Positions 1-5,177 of a stretch of DNA of 5,177 nt are shown piece by piece. The notes below the pieces were generated by a model, which worked only from the letters and a program-made list of their open reading frames with translations, ran no database searches and was not told the origin of the DNA. This stretch comes from Pseudonocardiaceae bacterium. Its GTDB lineage: Bacteria; Actinomycetota; Actinomycetes; Mycobacteriales; Pseudonocardiaceae. Numbering within the stretch: position 1 is the stretch's first letter; the number at the start of each line of letters is the position of its first letter. The position numbers and the translations under genes were made by a program. The stretch is from positions 1-5,177 of the forward strand of contig JAICSB010000275.1 of assembly GCA_025937115.1 (NCBI GenBank), given 5' to 3'.

Positions 1-118
1 CGGCCCGCTCCGCACACCACACGACCACCTGGGCCTGGGCATTGGCCAGATCGGTGAACGTCTCCCCGGCCCAGAAGTTGCCGCGGACGTACTGCACGGC
101 CCGCTCCACCCGGGGCTT
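1..118 (-). pseudogene. istA: IS21-family transposase IstA, distal fragment (after insertion)
   Basis: Read on the minus strand from 118 to 1, the frame is open for 39 codons: it begins KPRVERAVQYVRGNFWAGE and continues through a DLANAQAQ segment to a VVWCAER segment at the window edge. This matches the region after the DDE core of IS21-family IstA transposases, where the Glu of KPRVE is the likely third catalytic residue. The frame is broken upstream at 116-119. The missing upstream codons, ending in QDK, are found 3.5 kb away at 3610-3762, so this is the distal half of one interrupted istA. It continues past the left window edge, so whether the 3' end and istB survive is not visible. It cannot make an active transposase, because catalytic Asp and Glu now lie on separate fragments. 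The family call rests on recognised motifs, not on a search. Confidence 0.85.
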
Positions 119-140
119 GGCCCACGTCGTCGACTACACC
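116..140 (+). repeat. Left imperfect terminal inverted repeat / attL inner arm
   Basis: The first 25 bases of the element match the reverse complement of its last 25 (3589-3613) at 14 positions. The best-conserved part is the inner end, ACTACACC here against ACTGCACC in the partner. The only mismatch within the CTTG core is the TT/AA dinucleotide at 117-118. A non-palindromic central dinucleotide between symmetric arms is what a serine recombinase crossover site looks like. The likely role is the element-side half-site bound by the recombinase. Confidence 0.55.
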
Positions 141-165
141 TGATCCCGACGATCGGTACCGCCGT

Positions 166-450
166 GTGCGGGTGACCCACCGGTTCCACCCGCTGTTCGG
201 ACAAGACTTCGAGTTCGTCGTGCACCGCCACAACTGGGGTGAGGACCGGGTCCATCTCCACGACGAGAACGGGCAGCTGTTCTCACTGCCCGCAGCGTGG
301 ACCGATGTCGCGCCGGTGGATCCGTTCGTTGGCCTCGCCGATGGCCGCTGCCCGTTCACCACTACGGACCTGGTGGCTCTGGCTGATCTGGTCGACCGGT
401 TGCGACCGGGGCTGGATCCCGACGCAACCGCCAAGCAGATTATGCCGTGA
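166..450 (+). CDS. DUF5372-family protein of unknown function
   Basis: This encodes a 94-aa acidic, His- and aromatic-rich protein. It is recognised as the DUF5372 family by its RVTHRFHPLFGQDFEFV opening, then HRHNWGEDRV, SLPAAWTD and DPF, ending in an ALADLVDRLRP helix. The length and the start of similarity fit a complete family member. The start chosen is GTG at 166. A second GTG at 172 is possible, and neither has a convincing ribosome binding site. The frame stays open back through the element end at 116, with no ATG, so the protein starts inside the element. No membrane segment or signal peptide is seen. From memory, genes of this family often sit beside recombinase genes in other bacteria, which agrees with its place as first gene here. 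Its biochemical function is unknown: it could be a recombination accessory factor, a regulator or cargo. Confidence 0.85.
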   Translation: MRVTHRFHPLFGQDFEFVVHRHNWGEDRVHLHDENGQLFSLPAAWTDVAPVDPFVGLADGRCPFTTTDLVALADLVDRLRPGLDPDATAKQIMP

Positions 451-555
451 ACGCCAAGGGAATTACGCCGCGAGCGCTCGATCACCCTGCGCACTGCCGA
501 CCGAACACCTGCTGGTGGTTCGTCATTAGGCACAGGTCAGATCGGTCTAATGGCG

Positions 556-566
556 GCGTGTCACGC
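556..566. promoter_or_regulatory. Short palindrome, possible operator ahead of the HTH gene
   Basis: GCGTG-T-CACGC is a perfect 5-bp inverted repeat around one central base, in the 175-bp gap between the DUF5372 and HTH genes. It lies 23 bp upstream of a possible -10 box and 60 bp before the HTH start. An operator bound by the HTH protein itself is a reasonable guess, but palindromes this short occur by chance in GC-rich DNA. Confidence 0.25.
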
Positions 567-588
567 ACAACTCCCTTTCATTGTGCGG

Positions 589-594
589 CATAAT
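589..594 (+). promoter_or_regulatory. Possible -10 box for the HTH-to-recombinase genes
   Basis: CATAAT matches the bacterial -10 consensus at five of six positions. It sits in a locally AT-rich patch (TAATTTGT follows) that stands out from the surrounding GC-rich sequence. It lies 32 bp before the HTH start codon. No clear -35 hexamer is visible at the expected distance, which is common in actinobacterial promoters. The assignment is tentative. Confidence 0.3.
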
Positions 595-615
595 TTGTCT
601 AACTCGGTTGTTGAT

Positions 616-620
616 GGGAG
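616..620 (+). promoter_or_regulatory. Ribosome binding site of the HTH gene
   Basis: GGGAG ends five bases before the ATG at 626. This is what selects 626 over the upstream in-frame candidates at 581 (TTG) and 614 (ATG), which have no such site. Confidence 0.6.
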
Positions 621-625
621 ACGCG

Positions 626-1102
626 ATGGCGATCCGGGAAGCGGTGGAAGACCCGAAGGTGACGGCGTTGCGGGAGACACGATGTTTGAACCCGCATCCC
701 GAGCAGGTGCGCGACGAGGCGTTCTTGCGCGAGGAGTTCTTCGATGCCCGCGACGCGGTGCAGGTCAAGTACGAGATGGTGCGCCGGGTGGTGGTCGAGG
801 GTGACTCGGTCACCGCCGCCGCGGCCGCGTTCGGGTACTCCAAGCCCTCTTACTACGCCGCCGCGGCGGCGCTGGCCGCCTCGGGGCTGGAGGGGTTGGT
901 GGCAGCCAAGCCTGGGCCCCGTGGCGGCCACAAACTCACCGAAACAATCCTGATCTGGGCACACGAGCAGCTGGTGGCCGATCCGGATCTGCGCCCCGCC
1001 AGACTGGTCAAACCCATCGCCGCCCAGTTCGGGGTGCGCGTGCACCCCCGCTCGATTGAACGCGCGCTGGCCCGCCACCAGGAGCGTCCCAAAAGCCACT
1101 GA
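626..1102 (+). CDS. Helix-turn-helix DNA-binding protein of the recombinase element
   Basis: This encodes a 158-aa protein starting at the ATG at 626. Residues 33-56 (FLREEFFDARDAVQVKYEM) form a charged helical lead-in. A transposase-type helix-turn-helix follows at about 58-92, with VTAAAAAFGYSKPSYY as the turn and recognition helix. GPRGGHKLT (97-105) then links to a second predicted HTH at about 115-150, whose core is IAAQFGVRVHPRSIERAL. Two HTH units in tandem resemble the DNA-binding half of IS630- or IS481-type transposases, but no DDE catalytic domain follows, so it should bind DNA without cutting it. It is the second gene of the element and may act as a repressor, or may help the recombinase recognise the ends. 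The next reading frame overlaps or directly follows its stop. The fold call is firm; the role is inferred. Confidence 0.85.
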   Translation: MAIREAVEDPKVTALRETRCLNPHPEQVRDEAFLREEFFDARDAVQVKYEMVRRVVVEGDSVTAAAAAFGYSKPSYYAAAAALAASGLEGLVAAKPGPRGGHKLTETILIWAHEQLVADPDLRPARLVKPIAAQFGVRVHPRSIERALARHQERPKSH

Positions 1103-1535
1103 CCAGGCCACCCCGGGTGGCATCGACGAGCAGCCGGCGCCCGCAACGACCCCGGCGCTTAGCCCGCGCGGCGGAGACGGGCTGGACGTGGGCTACGAAC
1201 ACCTGCGAGAGACCGCGCTGCACGCCCGCGCCGAGGCGTTCCCACTCGGATTCGCGGTGCTGTGCCGGGGCGGGGTGACCACATGGCGGCGCACCCTGCG
1301 CGGAGGGAGCAGCCCGCCCACCACGACACCAGCACCCATCCCGCGCACCGTCGCGGCGCCCGCCGGCCCCCGCCACATCCCGGCCGCGTTACCGACCGCG
1401 CTGGCCACCGAACTCATCCACATCTTGGCCGCGGTCGCTCTGGCCGAACCGACCCCCGACCCGCTCCCACCCCCGCTGTCAGCGATCCGAGGAGATCCCA
1501 TCGATGTTCACCGACACCGCATCGTCAAAGGTTAG
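1056..1535 (+). CDS. Uncharacterised protein between HTH and recombinase genes
   Basis: The open frame runs from a TTG at 1056 to a stop at 1535, up to 159 aa, and overlaps the recombinase start by 32 bp. Consistently G/C third codon positions from about 1095 onward, and tight packing between two genes of the same strand, argue that it is real. After a poorly ordered Ala/Pro-rich leader comes a likely helical segment, VGYEHLRETALHARAEAF, then PLGFAVLCRGGVTTWRRTL. A Pro-rich linker follows, then a second helix, LATELIHILAAVALAEP. No known domain, catalytic motif, signal peptide or clear membrane helix is recognised. The start is uncertain. TTG 1056 lies inside the HTH gene without a good ribosome site, and GTG 1188 has a distant GGAG. 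The AGGAG at 1080-1084 points at codon 1095, which is GCC. Translational coupling to the recombinase is likely. Confidence 0.65.
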   Translation: MNARWPATRSVPKATDQATPGGIDEQPAPATTPALSPRGGDGLDVGYEHLRETALHARAEAFPLGFAVLCRGGVTTWRRTLRGGSSPPTTTPAPIPRTVAAPAGPRHIPAALPTALATELIHILAAVALAEPTPDPLPPPLSAIRGDPIDVHRHRIVKG

Positions 1536-3549
1536 CGCCGCGCACCTGAGCAGGACCGCGTTGCTGTATGTCCGGCAATCCACGATCCGCCAAGTCCTGC
1601 ACAACACCGAGTCCGCGGTGCGCCAGTACAACCTGCGTGGCCGGGCGATCGCGCTGGGCTGGGCCGATGACCAAATCAGGGTGATCGACATCGACCAGGG
1701 CCAGTCCGGTGCCTCAGCCGCGGACCGGGAAGGGTTCCAGCAGTTGGTCGCCGAGGTGTCGCTGGGTCGGGCCGGGATCGTGCTCGGGCTGGAATGTTCC
1801 CGGCTGGCCCGCAACTCCGCGGACTGGCACCAACTCCTCGAGCTCTGCGGCATGAGCGGCACCCTGATCTGCGACGAAGACGGCCTCTACGATCCGCGCA
1901 CCTTCAACGACCGGCTCCTGCTCGGGATGAAAGGCCAGATGAGCGAGGCCGAGCTGCATTTCATCAAGGCCCGGCTGCGCGGCGGGGTGCTGTCCAAGGC
2001 CCGCCGCGGTGAACTGATCACCCCACTACCGGTCGGGCTGATCCACGACGGCACCGGGCACGTCGTCCTCGACCCCGACACCGCGGTCCGCGACGCCCTG
2101 ACACACCTGTTCACCACCTTCGAAGCGACCGGCTCGGCCACCGCATGCGTCAAAGCGTTCAACACCGCGGCCCTGCCCTTCCCCTGGCGACACCGCAAAG
2201 GACCACGCAAGGGCGAGCTGGACTGGAAACCGCTGGCCCACCACACCGTGCTGCGCGTGCTGCACAACCCCCGCTACGCCGGCGCGTTCACCTACGGCCG
2301 ACACAGCCACACCACACAACCCCATGGCAAGGCCACAACCCGGCTGCTGCCCCGCGAAGAGTGGATCTCCTTCATCCCCGACGTCCACCCCGGATACATC
2401 ACCCTGGACCAGTACGACGCCAACTGCGCCCGCCTGGCCGCCAACGCCGCCGCGCACGGCCTCGACCGCGCCGCCGGCCCGGCCCGCGAAGGCACCGCCC
2501 TGCTGCAAGGGATCATCATCTGCGGCCGCTGCGGGCGGCGGATGACCGTGCGCTACCACCAGCGCGCCGGCAAGGACCTGCCCACCTACCTCTGCCAGCG
2601 CGACGGGATCGACCACGCCCGCCCGATCTGCGCCACGATGCCCGGCCATGAGCTCGACCAGCGCACCGGCGAGCTGCTGCTCGACACCCTCACCCCACTG
2701 ACCGTCGAGGCCGCGTTCACCGTCACCGCCGAGCTGGAACACCGCGCCGCCGAAGCCGACGCGATGCGCGCCGCGCACGTCGAACGCGCCCGCTACCACG
2801 CCGACCTCGCCCGCCGCCGCTACCTGGCCGTCGACCCCGGAAACCGGCTGGTCGCCGAAAGCCTCGAAGCCGACTGGAACACCACGCTACGCGCCCTCAA
2901 CGACGCCCAACACACCTACGACCACGCCCGCGAGCAGCAACTCGGGAAGCTCACCGACACCCAGAAAGCCAGGATCCATCAGCTGGTCACCGACCTACCC
3001 GGCATCTGGAACGACCCCACCACCCCAGCCCGGGAGCGCAAACGCATCGCCCGACTGCTGCTCACCGACGTCACCGTGACCCGCACCCCCAACCAGATCA
3101 CCGCGCACCTCCGCCTACGCGGCGGACAACACCACACCCTCACGCTCCCGCTGCCCAAAACCGCCTGGGAACTCCGCCAAACCCCACCAGCGACCGTCAC
3201 CGAGATCGACCAGCTCCTCGATCACCACACCCACGCCGAGATCGCCGACATCCTCAACCAACGCGGCCTCACCAGCGGCGACGGCCGCCCCTTCCACGCC
3301 TTGATCGTCCGCAACATCCGCGACCACTACCAGCTGCCCAGCCGGGAGCAACGCCTGCGCGCCACCGGATTGATCCCCCTCGCCGAGATCGCCACCCGCC
3401 TCGGCGTGTCCACCGCGACCATCAAGAACTGGTACCACGCCGGACTTGTCGGTGGCCAGCGCTACAACGACAAGAATGAAGTGCTCTACAACCCACCCGG
3501 ACCCAACCCGCCAACCCCGCACCAAGGACGACGCCTCACCACCCGCTGA
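1504..3549 (+). CDS. Large serine recombinase (resolvase/invertase superfamily)
   Basis: This encodes a 681-aa protein with ATG at 1504 and AGGAG at 1490-1494. The N-terminal resolvase domain (about 18-160) has the catalytic serine in LLYVRQST (Ser26), DQGQSGAS (64-71) and the arginine motif CSRLARN (98-104). A recombinase domain follows (about 170-300, with VLRVLHNPRYAGAF). Next comes a zinc-ribbon of four cysteines (Cys340, Cys343, Cys364, Cys376), then a coiled coil of about 408-480 rich in Ala, Arg and Glu. All parts of a large serine integrase are present and intact. Beyond them are two more predicted helix-turn-helix segments, at about 577-612 (HAEIADILNQRG) and 622-655 (AEIATRLGVSTATIKNWY). 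The enzyme should cut and rejoin DNA through a 5' phosphoserine at CTTG, moving its own element. As last gene it ends 60 bp before the right end of the element. No directionality factor is identified. Confidence 0.95.
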   Translation: MFTDTASSKVSAAHLSRTALLYVRQSTIRQVLHNTESAVRQYNLRGRAIALGWADDQIRVIDIDQGQSGASAADREGFQQLVAEVSLGRAGIVLGLECSRLARNSADWHQLLELCGMSGTLICDEDGLYDPRTFNDRLLLGMKGQMSEAELHFIKARLRGGVLSKARRGELITPLPVGLIHDGTGHVVLDPDTAVRDALTHLFTTFEATGSATACVKAFNTAALPFPWRHRKGPRKGELDWKPLAHHTVLRVLHNPRYAGAFTYGRHSHTTQPHGKATTRLLPREEWISFIPDVHPGYITLDQYDANCARLAANAAAHGLDRAAGPAREGTALLQGIIICGRCGRRMTVRYHQRAGKDLPTYLCQRDGIDHARPICATMPGHELDQRTGELLLDTLTPLTVEAAFTVTAELEHRAAEADAMRAAHVERARYHADLARRRYLAVDPGNRLVAESLEADWNTTLRALNDAQHTYDHAREQQLGKLTDTQKARIHQLVTDLPGIWNDPTTPARERKRIARLLLTDVTVTRTPNQITAHLRLRGGQHHTLTLPLPKTAWELRQTPPATVTEIDQLLDHHTHAEIADILNQRGLTSGDGRPFHALIVRNIRDHYQLPSREQRLRATGLIPLAEIATRLGVSTATIKNWYHAGLVGGQRYNDKNEVLYNPPGPNPPTPHQGRRLTTR

Positions 3550-3550
3550 C

Positions 3551-3610
3551 CTGCACAAACACGACATCCTCATCCAACGAACCGAAGGGGTGCAGTATGC
3601 AACCTCATCC
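3551..3610. repeat. Small repeats at the right end of the element
   Basis: Right after the recombinase stop there are two overlapping repeat patterns. CCTCATCC occurs twice in direct orientation, at 3568-3575 and 3603-3610, 35 bp apart, with the second copy reaching into the CTTG core. CTGCAC (3551-3556) is repeated inverted as GTGCAG (3590-3595). These may be extra recombinase contacts around the attachment site. The 33-bp loop and lack of a T-run argue against a terminator. Confidence 0.4.
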
Positions 3611-3613
3611 TTG
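3589..3613 (-). repeat. Right imperfect terminal inverted repeat / attR inner arm
   Basis: Read on the minus strand, these 25 bases match the left end (116-140) at 14 positions. Shared blocks include the C and G flanking the central dinucleotide, and ACTRCACC at the inner end. It directly abuts the istA fragment, so it is both the right boundary of the element and the likely recombinase half-site. Confidence 0.55.
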
Positions 3614-3762
3614 TCCTGAGGCCGACGCACCCGGGCCGGGTCGGTACCGAACCCGGCATGCTGGGCATAGTCCAACCAACCGCTGCTCAACCGCGGGTTG
3701 ACCGCGTCCGGGTCGGTGACCACGGCCTTGAGGTTGTCCGGGATCAGGACCTTAAACACCCC
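3610..3762 (-). pseudogene. istA: IS21-family transposase IstA, proximal fragment (before insertion)
   Basis: On the minus strand, about 50 codons from 3759 down to 3610 read GVFKVLIPDNLKAVVTD, then DAVNPRLSSGWLDYAQ and TDPARVRRPQDK. This is the central DDE region of IS21-family IstA, and the Asp of IPDN is the probable second catalytic residue. It continues directly into KPRVERAV at 118, on the other side of the inserted element. Upstream similarity stops at about 3760-3766: family members normally have an FFGG-like segment before VFKV, but here the preceding codons read RDPHIRG and belong to the neighbouring recombinase operon. The first half of istA and that IS end are therefore gone, so the gene was already truncated or was damaged later by a deletion. 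The minus-strand frame running on below 3610 is antisense to the recombinase and is not part of istA. Confidence 0.85.
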
Positions 3763-3815
3763 TCTGATATGCGGGTCTCGTTGTCAAGGTTCTGATCGTG
3801 TGTCGGGCGGGTCAT
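3744..3815 (-). pseudogene. Truncated start of a TnpC-like gene after the tyrosine recombinase
   Basis: An ATG at 3815-3813 overlaps the recombinase stop as ATGA and is preceded by GAGGAGG (3820-3826), a strong ribosome binding site. The frame reads MTRPTHDQNLDNETRIS and stops at 3744, giving 23 codons. Its last few codons come from the istA fragment, so the native gene is cut after about codon 17-18. In Tn554-like systems the second tyrosine recombinase gene is followed by a small TnpC (DUF6262-type) gene, often with such an overlap, and a short polar N-terminus fits that. Too little is left to prove the family. The broken stub is probably non-functional. Confidence 0.5.
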
Positions 3816-5177
3816 GAGGCCTCCTCGTCGAGTCGGGCGAGCAGCCCGTCGAAGATCTTCTTTCGGCCGATCTGACCCTTGTTGGCGGCGTCGTCGCGCT
3901 GGTTCTGCAGGGTGGGACGGAACTCGATGGTGGTCTGGAAGAACGTGCACGACTCGCAGATCGACTCGAAGTGGCAGTCCATCCCGATCGGGCGGGCGCA
4001 GTAGCCGTTCCCGAGCATCCGTCGGTGCATTTCGGCGCGCAGCTTGCGCATCTCGGCACCCTCGGCGTCGGCGGGCAGCTGCTTGGGCGCCTCGTAGAGT
4101 GCCTCGACCTTCTCCGAGACGGTGAAGTACTCGTCGGCGACGGTCCGGTCGGCGATCTTTGCATAAACGAGAGTCATGTGAAGTGAGCGATGACCGAGCA
4201 ACGCGGCGATCGCTTCCAGCGACATGCCTCGGTTGATCGCCTGAGTTGCCAGGGTATGCCTCAGTCGGTGGGGGGAAACCTGGCTGATCCCGGCGGCCTC
4301 AGCGGCCTTGGTGACCGCGGCATCCACCCGCGAGACGGGCATCGGTCTACCCTGTTCAACGAAGATCAGCTTGCTGCGCAACCCTTCTGGTCTCCCTGCG
4401 AGCCACTGGTCGAGCAGTTCCTTCAGCTGCGGGTGCAAGGGGATGTAGCGGTCGGTGTGCAGCTTGCCGACCGGCACGTGCAACCAGTAGGCAGAGCCGA
4501 TCTGCACGACTGCATCGGTGGTCAGCCCGAGGTACTCGCCCTTGCGCATGCCGGTGCGGGCGAGAAACTCCACGGTCAGCCGAACGAATGGGTCCTCATC
4601 GGCGCGGGCGGCCTGCAGCAGCTTGGTCGCAGCGGCGTCGTCGAGGAAGCGAGGCAGGGTCTCGTCGGGGATCGGCATGTCCGAGGCCAGCACCGGAACC
4701 CGCGTCGGCGCATCGGCGGCTTCCCACTCGAGCAGCCGGGTGAAGAATCCGCGCAGCACACAGAGCCGATCCTTGATGGTGTGGCGATGCAGCGGCCCTC
4801 CCCGCAATGCCGGTCGCTCGGCCAACCAGCACTTGTAGGCCTCAACGTGTAACCGGCCAAGATCGGCGACGCACTGGGCCGCAGGGTCGCGTTCGGTGAC
4901 GAAGCCGGCGAACTCCCGCAGCGTGGCCTCGATGTTCTTCACCCGGCCAGGCCGCAACGTGGTTGCCACTTGATCCAGGTAATCCCGCATCGTCGTGCGC
5001 ATCCGCTGCGGCACCTTCGCCCACCCCGCAGCCCGCACGTCGGCCTTGGTTTGGCCGCGCTTGCGGGGCAGTTCGTCAGTGACCCCAGCGTGAAACAGCG
5101 TCGCCTCCAACCCGAAGATTGCGGTGGACAGACCATGGCGCGAGTCGTGCCCGTAGCGGTCGGCCGCAGCCAACAGC
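3812..5177 (-). CDS. Tyrosine recombinase/integrase, Tn554 TnpB-like (5' end outside window)
   Basis: The visible 454-455 codons are the C-terminal part of a longer protein, open to the right edge with no credible start (TTG at 5173 is internal). Numbering from that TTG, a SAM-like core-binding domain spans about 58-150 (LDQVATTLRPGRVKN, FFTRLLEW). The catalytic domain spans about 175-350 and has every expected residue: Arg210 in RTGMRKGEY, Lys237 in VGKLHTDRYIP, His302 and Arg305 in PHRLRHTLAT, His328 in LLGHRS and nucleophile Tyr337 in TLVYAKIA. Following it is a Cys cluster (Cys392, Cys400, Cys406, Cys409, in CARPIGMDC and ESICESCTFF) and a basic FRPTLQNQRDDAANKGQ tail, typical of the long TnpB-type recombinases of Tn554-like elements. 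It probably remains catalytically competent, but its normal partner, the next gene, is truncated. Confidence 0.9.
   Translation of the reverse strand, partial: LLAAADRYGHDSRHGLSTAIFGLEATLFHAGVTDELPRKRGQTKADVRAAGWAKVPQRMRTTMRDYLDQVATTLRPGRVKNIEATLREFAGFVTERDPAAQCVADLGRLHVEAYKCWLAERPALRGGPLHRHTIKDRLCVLRGFFTRLLEWEAADAPTRVPVLASDMPIPDETLPRFLDDAAATKLLQAARADEDPFVRLTVEFLARTGMRKGEYLGLTTDAVVQIGSAYWLHVPVGKLHTDRYIPLHPQLKELLDQWLAGRPEGLRSKLIFVEQGRPMPVSRVDAAVTKAAEAAGISQVSPHRLRHTLATQAINRGMSLEAIAALLGHRSLHMTLVYAKIADRTVADEYFTVSEKVEALYEAPKQLPADAEGAEMRKLRAEMHRRMLGNGYCARPIGMDCHFESICESCTFFQTTIEFRPTLQNQRDDAANKGQIGRKKIFDGLLARLDEEAS

Follow-up and report, generated by a model that had tools for sequence, protein, structure and literature searches.

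Serine-recombinase elements that probably home to active-site codons of transposition genes

The window analyzed here is the whole 5,177 nt stretch from a Pseudonocardiaceae bacterium (assembly GCA_025937115.1, contig JAICSB010000275.1, positions 1 to 5,177), in which four genes, one of them encoding a large serine recombinase, lie between two pieces of an istA gene of the IS21 family of insertion sequences (IS). This arrangement raises the question of what kind of element interrupts the transposase gene and whether its position there is accidental. The complete serine-recombinase element extends from 119 to 3612 (3,494 bp, counting one TT). Judging from sequence comparison with its relatives, it belongs in all likelihood to a lineage of site-specific serine-recombinase transposons that home in on catalytic codons conserved in transposition genes, where they would disable the host transposon and might travel with it.

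The C-terminal piece of istA (2–118, minus strand) begins KPRVERAVQYVRGNF... and runs off the window. In the junction frame 39 codons are open; the junction codon is Lys and a Glu follows four codons on (K-P-R-V-E). The N-terminal piece (3613–3783, minus strand) ends ...RRPQD. Searched separately, the two pieces align without a gap between them on an uninterrupted natural istA from Rhodococcus sp. RDE2 (L139): residues 8–57 of the N piece match nt 1501–1650 (86% identity over 50 amino acids) and residues 1–39 of the C piece match nt 1651–1767 (77% over 39 amino acids). A first-pass annotation of the sequence had described a split istA enclosing four genes, with a serine-recombinase element ending on both sides within istA, and had proposed looking for the uninterrupted junction; gene set and coordinates agree with our results, and L139 spans both pieces. 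Neither of the outcomes that it had named as refuting, ends at other positions or an istA naturally carrying these genes without the junction, was found among the copies examined.

The ends could be placed with the help of two copies on pNGR234a (L080 and L081), which have the same gene order as the window, are identical to each other over 3,325 bp and encode a recombinase 46% identical to the window's. This bears out the earlier guess of a kinship to a duplicated gene set of NGR234, which is presumably y4bA-D/y4pH-K. The flanks of L080 overlap by exactly TT on an intact ISNCY gene (L140, nt 2553–2554), those of L081 by exactly TT on an intact ISRel16 istA (L143, nt 2618–2619). The overlap at the DNA level comes from these two loci; the window's own istA pieces were aligned as protein. 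In the window the TT lies at 117–118 and again at 3611–3612. The left end (119–140, plus strand) carries the arm motif ACTACACC at 133–140, 14 nt past the core, and the right end (3589–3612, plus strand) reads GGTGCAGTATG-N11-TT, its motif being the inverted counterpart of the left arm motif. The placement of both ends in istA thus stood, but not their resolution to a shared 4 bp core, CTTG: the core is 2 bp and the other two bases coincide. In Mycobacterium sp. SM1 (L003), the base preceding TT is T at the left and C at the right. No clear long terminal inverted repeat was seen among the 25 longest pairs listed.

Relatives with the same gene order were drawn from genomes, plasmids and whole replicons. 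We oriented 84 loci, comprising 44 class A loci (DUF5372 match in range), 37 class B loci and three further loci with a class A-type recombinase (L001, L008 and L094) that were excluded from the end search because the contig lacked a left end or the range used held no DUF5372 match. Dropping L004, L006 and L007, which end in or before the target, left 41 class A rows, the window and 40 relatives. The copies are mostly from plasmids and were picked by similarity to the window recombinase; recombinase fragments in the match lists fell mostly outside this sample. The end motifs were first recognized by eye and then run as patterns over the class A rows. The left-end pattern TT-N14-ANT[AG][CTA], which lies within the element and outside the target, is present in 42 of the 44. 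It had been widened after misses were inspected by eye, which added 11 rows, ten with the Glu at +4 and one, L016, without. The right-end pattern GGTG[CT]A, which precedes the right core by 22 nt, is present in 26 of the 44, and in these 26 rows with both patterns the element is 3,295–3,550 bp long.

The core sets a reading frame, in which the left flank opens with an AAx codon (Lys/Asn). This codon is cut exactly four codons before the position of the catalytic Glu of a DDE transposase in 32 of the 41 readable left flanks; target families were assigned by motif, backed by Pfam tallies. Counted without regard to family, a Glu stands at codon +4 in 33 of the 41 rows, one of which (L121) is an IS66 tnpB and a coincidence, while the left end of L016 is ruined. 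The DDE targets belong to the IS21, Mu/TniA-type, ISNCY, IS3 and ISL3 families. Among the 30 distinct DDE flanks, obtained by omitting L016, seven tnpB loci and identical flanks, the Glu is at +4 in 29, compared with 0–6 at any one of the 11 remaining offsets in this frame, and is therefore not a matter of chance. Throughout the DDE rows the recombinase gene lies antisense to the transposase, always in the same orientation. The junction at a DKPRVER motif noted in the first-pass annotation is real; its recurrence as a target in unrelated transposases had gone unnoticed.

Pfam searches agreed with these assignments. The 40 C pieces of at least 30 amino acids matched, in overlapping counts, Mu-transpos_C_2 (18), TnpB_IS66 (7), rve_3 (5), Mu-transpos_C (4), rve_2 (3), ISL3 (1) and IstB (1); L015 and L080, for example, were without a Pfam match among ten pieces scanned singly. 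An rve match was found in 13 of the 22 N pieces of at least 50 amino acids. Three IS3-type pieces have their junction residue at one and the same column of rve_3, number 16. Aligned to the solved IstA of IS5376, the C piece of L082 places Lys1 on K229 and Glu5 on E233, which is the catalytic Glu according to PMC10122671.

The same element is found in unrelated genes. When near-identical pairs were compared within one replicon or genome, the two pNGR234a copies lay in an ISNCY and an IS21 transposase, L127/L128 (99.9% identical) in IS3 and IS21, L002/L003 (99.9%) in TniA-type and IS21, and L105/L106 (98%) in IS21 and IS3. As a hold-out, three further plasmids were taken from the same match list. 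An automatic rule gave five rows, of which L159 (IS3), L160 and L161 (both IS21) and L165 (IS66 tnpB) fitted on both sides; in L162 the N side is an IS3 at the same motif and the left match is spurious. L164 (ISNCY) and L163 (IS66 tnpB) were found by inspection and then checked. Leaving out the small fragment L158 and the class B copy L166, all seven class A copies examined fit, one of them on one side only, and all four DDE left flanks have the Glu at +4. For class A, the pattern in the sequences is very strong.

Composites and REARRANGEMENT were examined at L125/L126, L102/L103, L110–L112 and L015, the composites by eye. L125 and L126 match perfectly over 6,085 bp and each consist of an IS21 harboring the element; they occupy two sites, flanked by target duplications of 5 bp (TCTGC) and 7 bp (GGATGTC). 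L102 and L103 share a 5,172-bp IS66-type composite at two sites, L103 with the 8-bp duplication GCTTGAGC, and L110–L112 represent a composite of ~3,900 bp at three sites. Such copies are as expected if the host IS carries the element with it. In L015 (2657 and 6119), an IS21 N half is joined to a TniA-type C half, and the right flank of L088 looks IS21-like by eye while its other piece is TniA-type; these mixed-family flanks appear as if element copies had recombined.

The target sites also have DNA in common. The 29 distinct left half-sites show A at −21, TC at −12/−11 and often AC at −9/−8, and the 21 right half-sites GTC at +1 to +3 and GG at +8/+9, giving a consensus of about A-N7-YTC-N10-TT-GTC-N4-GG in several IS families. 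A weight matrix built from 16 IS21 sites ranked the true left half-site 1–2 in seven of 11 other DDE loci. This comparison demonstrates DNA common to some of the targets but does not tell recombinase preference apart from protein conservation.

Several observations weigh against homing to catalytic codons. Seven of the 41 class A copies (L121 included) are in IS66 tnpB, which is not a DDE gene, and L114 is shifted by two codons, with its Glu at +2. The weight matrix ranked the true site 76–484 in the remaining four of the 11 other DDE loci and 16–1088 in five tnpB loci. That the Glu is the catalytic one was verified against a known structure in IS21 alone; a PDB search with the TniA-type piece L088 gave no useful relative. 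The labels TniA-type, IS3 and ISNCY rest on Pfam matches, RefSeq names or (e.g., L012) reading by eye. As to the composites, L102 is without a clean target duplication, none was seen for L110–L112 in flanks read by eye, and composites could also arise by separate insertions into identical IS copies. Among the deeper relatives, L011, L064, L085, L135 and L136 resisted placement, and L060 is a doubtful case.

Some of these loci have features of their own. The left end of L114 looks as if inserted at the next Lys codon of K-A-K-V-E, a natural off-register event. In L011, L064, L085 and L135, which encode class B recombinases, the reading frame continues long past the matched part, and L085 has repeated GGTGCATCCCCTGG-like stretches.

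One of the 37 class B loci, L023 (48% identical), represents an insertion into ISL3 and groups with the DDE-Glu users; the other 36 are 35–43% identical. We scanned 20 class B N-side pieces, namely those with a motif already recognized by eye, so that the rate of Pfam matches among them should not be taken as unbiased; 16 matched mobile-element families (IstB, RVT_1, IS66, rve, DDE_3, DDE_Tnp_1_4 and RepSA), the RVT_1 match of L098 slightly below cut-off. L137 matched helix-turn-helix (HTH) domains only, and L060, L086 and L119 had no Pfam match. Read by eye, class B junctions lie in the Walker A motif and in FQLIS/RYERGS of IstB, in IDADI of a group II intron reverse transcriptase (RT), after ERAIR in IS66, in RPHSS of IS3, LDIDD of IS1380, NPVE of IS630 and YIAKY of Rep. 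L098 and L099, 98.6% identical over 2,355 bp, are in an RT and an IS1380-type transposase. Both flanks of L091 (~3073 and ~5777) look like the same istB side, inverted, and the left one also corresponds, in reverse orientation, to the right flank of L090, which points to an inversion between copies.

To relate targets to the enzymes, we mapped target labels on a midpoint-rooted recombinase tree of 50 rows. The label needs 12 changes, the minimum being 11 and the mean after shuffling 27.0. Users of DDE-Glu and tnpB sites form one group of 26 rows (support 100/99), the tnpB users being nested among those of DDE-Glu sites. The kind of target tracks the phylogeny of the recombinases.

How might such insertions arise? 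By analogy with the enzyme family, we infer that the recombinase recognizes its target directly and sets the specificity itself. The element would excise as a circle, with attP formed by the joined ends, probably GGTGCAGTATG-N11-TT-N14-ACTACACC, and the circle would integrate by recombination over the TT overlap. The attB would be a stretch of transposase coding DNA at the AAx codon that precedes the DDE Glu by four codons, used such that the recombinase gene comes to lie antisense to the transposase. As motif DNA is common to several IS families, the element would have a large, conserved and dispensable set of targets, as homing elements have in active-site motifs. Insertion would part the catalytic Glu from the remaining active site, so the host transposase should be dead; the host IS may still move by means of transposase made elsewhere and take the element along.

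Alternatively, it might be an accessory factor, either the HTH protein of the element or a guide RNA, that directs the recombinase towards transposase genes. The HTH protein is similar to the N-terminal portion of IS630/IS481 transposases, and a homologue of it occurs in all 44 class A rows. However, no match to it was found in any of the 37 class B loci, yet many of these are in conserved motifs of mobile-element genes, and the targets have a common DNA motif around the core, as is usual for serine integrases; we consider such steering unlikely, though no search was aimed at a guide RNA. Somewhat less probable still is a programmed excision switch, in which the element would act as a regulator and the transposase would be restored when it leaves. 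The closest NCBIfam equivalog of the recombinase is XisF, from the fdxN excision element (E=1.5e-22), and in two relatives the flanks join on naturally intact genes with an overlap of exactly 2 bp, but the score of 80.2 bits is far from the equivalog cut-off of 375, and near-identical copies in unrelated transposase families indicate an element that is mobile and not bound to one gene. In contrast to XisF/fdxN, this one is a multi-copy mobile element.

Mobile elements accumulate on plasmids, and the copies here are mostly plasmid-derived and chosen by recombinase similarity, so that ordinary random nesting, with the common motif due to chance or selection bias, had to be weighed. The position is codon-constant in 29 of 30 distinct DDE flanks, in five transposase families and one orientation, and seven further copies fit; barring an error in mapping the ends, the position statistics refute this explanation, to which we give next to no credence. 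Equally negligible is the idea that an IS21-type transposon carries the four genes as its own native cargo. They do lie inside an IS21 in the window, but intact istA and ISNCY genes lack them and the same genes occur in other transposase families, and we rejected it.

Homing to transposition genes, our preferred explanation, sets the element apart from known systems. The pNGR234a copies have the ends, the TT core and the DDE-Glu target in common with the window; to our knowledge this set is known by gene names only, and no paper was found in a literature search on y4bA of NGR234. With large serine recombinases of the phiC31/Bxb1 type, the window protein has resolvase, recombinase and zinc-ribbon domains in common, and its relatives at L080 and L081 the 2-bp overlap. 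Unlike those phage integrases, it belongs to a small element and has a C-terminal HTH extension. A multi-targeting clade of large serine recombinases, TndX-like transposases included, combines one recombinase with many target genes; DUF4368 is carried by 63% of the clade and one multi-targeting integrase also uses a TT core (PMC10083194). DUF4368, a feature typical of TndX/TnpX-like enzymes, found no match at E≤0.1 in the window recombinase. Here, insertion is exact to the codon and falls in genes for transposition, whereas the accessible text of PMC10083194 does not name transposase targets. In the IS607 family the DNA-binding domain precedes the catalytic domain (PMC4058570); the window recombinase has its resolvase domain N-terminal, at 20–170. 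Inteins and group I introns are homing elements that insert at conserved active-site codons. The window element has this kind of site in common with them but uses a DNA recombinase instead, and no Pfam match at E≤0.1 to intein, splicing or homing endonuclease domains was found in its four proteins.

We suggest the term transposase-homing serine-recombinase element for this class, to which the window copy, with its insertion at the codon four before the DDE Glu and its TT core, belongs. The kind of enzyme is known, but its target niche appears to be new within the open-access literature searched, in which we found no description of a serine-recombinase element targeting transposase active-site codons. 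If true, the niche of this mobile element would be the active-site coding DNA of other mobile elements, making it a DNA-recombinase counterpart of homing. Many of the transposases annotated as split would be explained in this way, and a measurable brake on the activity of IS is predicted. It would also provide a natural series of serine recombinases with attB shifted between known motifs, and with it data on how these enzymes read DNA.

The recombinase family comprises at least 7,998 proteins at E≤1e-50. Matches occur in 522 of 72,556 plasmid records at E≤1e-5, 373 of them covering at least 80% of the recombinase, and in nine of 296 genomes of one class at 1e-80; these counts do not tell how many members target transposases. 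Among 50,697 phage records, 65 matched, none over 80% of the protein, and six exact peptide patterns found no relative in viral contigs. We lean slightly towards viewing the family as a guild of transposon hyperparasites, each clade having evolved to read the DNA of a different conserved motif, in the active site or core, of the enzymes of mobile elements, and together acting as both natural brake and passenger of bacterial transposition. The motifs considered are DDE Glu, DDE Asp, IstB Walker A, group II intron RT, IS66 TnpB and Rep, some from one locus each.

The closest relatives of the window element are mostly actinobacterial. Its first gene (166–450, plus strand) encodes a DUF5372 protein of 94 amino acids with no assigned function (PF17342, E=1.4e-27) and 913 homologues at E≤0.001; its structure model, of moderate confidence (pLDDT 72.3), had no PDB match at E≤0.001. 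The HTH protein (581–1102, plus strand; PF13518), whose start codon may be further in, matched NF033545 (E=2.2e-8) and NF033577 (E=4.5e-7) in NCBIfam, both below the curated cut-off. It resembles the N-terminal DNA-binding part of IS630/IS481 transposases, and was perhaps captured from one. The weakly conserved orf3 (1056–1535, plus strand) has 35–48% identity in actinobacterial relatives and no Pfam match.

The large serine recombinase (1504–3549, plus strand; 681 amino acids) matches PF00239, PF07508 and PF13408 above cut-off, as well as phrog_95 (integrase) and phrog_2474. Its N-terminal resolvase domain is followed by recombinase and zinc-ribbon domains and a C-terminal MerR-like HTH, which gave the sole PADLOC match, a weak one. 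Across 11 aligned rows, S26, C340, C343, C364 and C376 are invariant; we take S26 to be the catalytic Ser and the four Cys to be zinc cysteines. The structure model is poor overall (pLDDT 61.5), but a long stretch of helices predicted with low confidence at 398–477 looks like the usual coiled coil.

Beyond the element, the N piece of istA is cut short at ~3783, and a second rearrangement thus seems to have struck the same gene. Beside this remnant lies a gene for a tyrosine recombinase of 453 amino acids (3812–5173, minus strand) with relatives on Rhodococcus plasmids.

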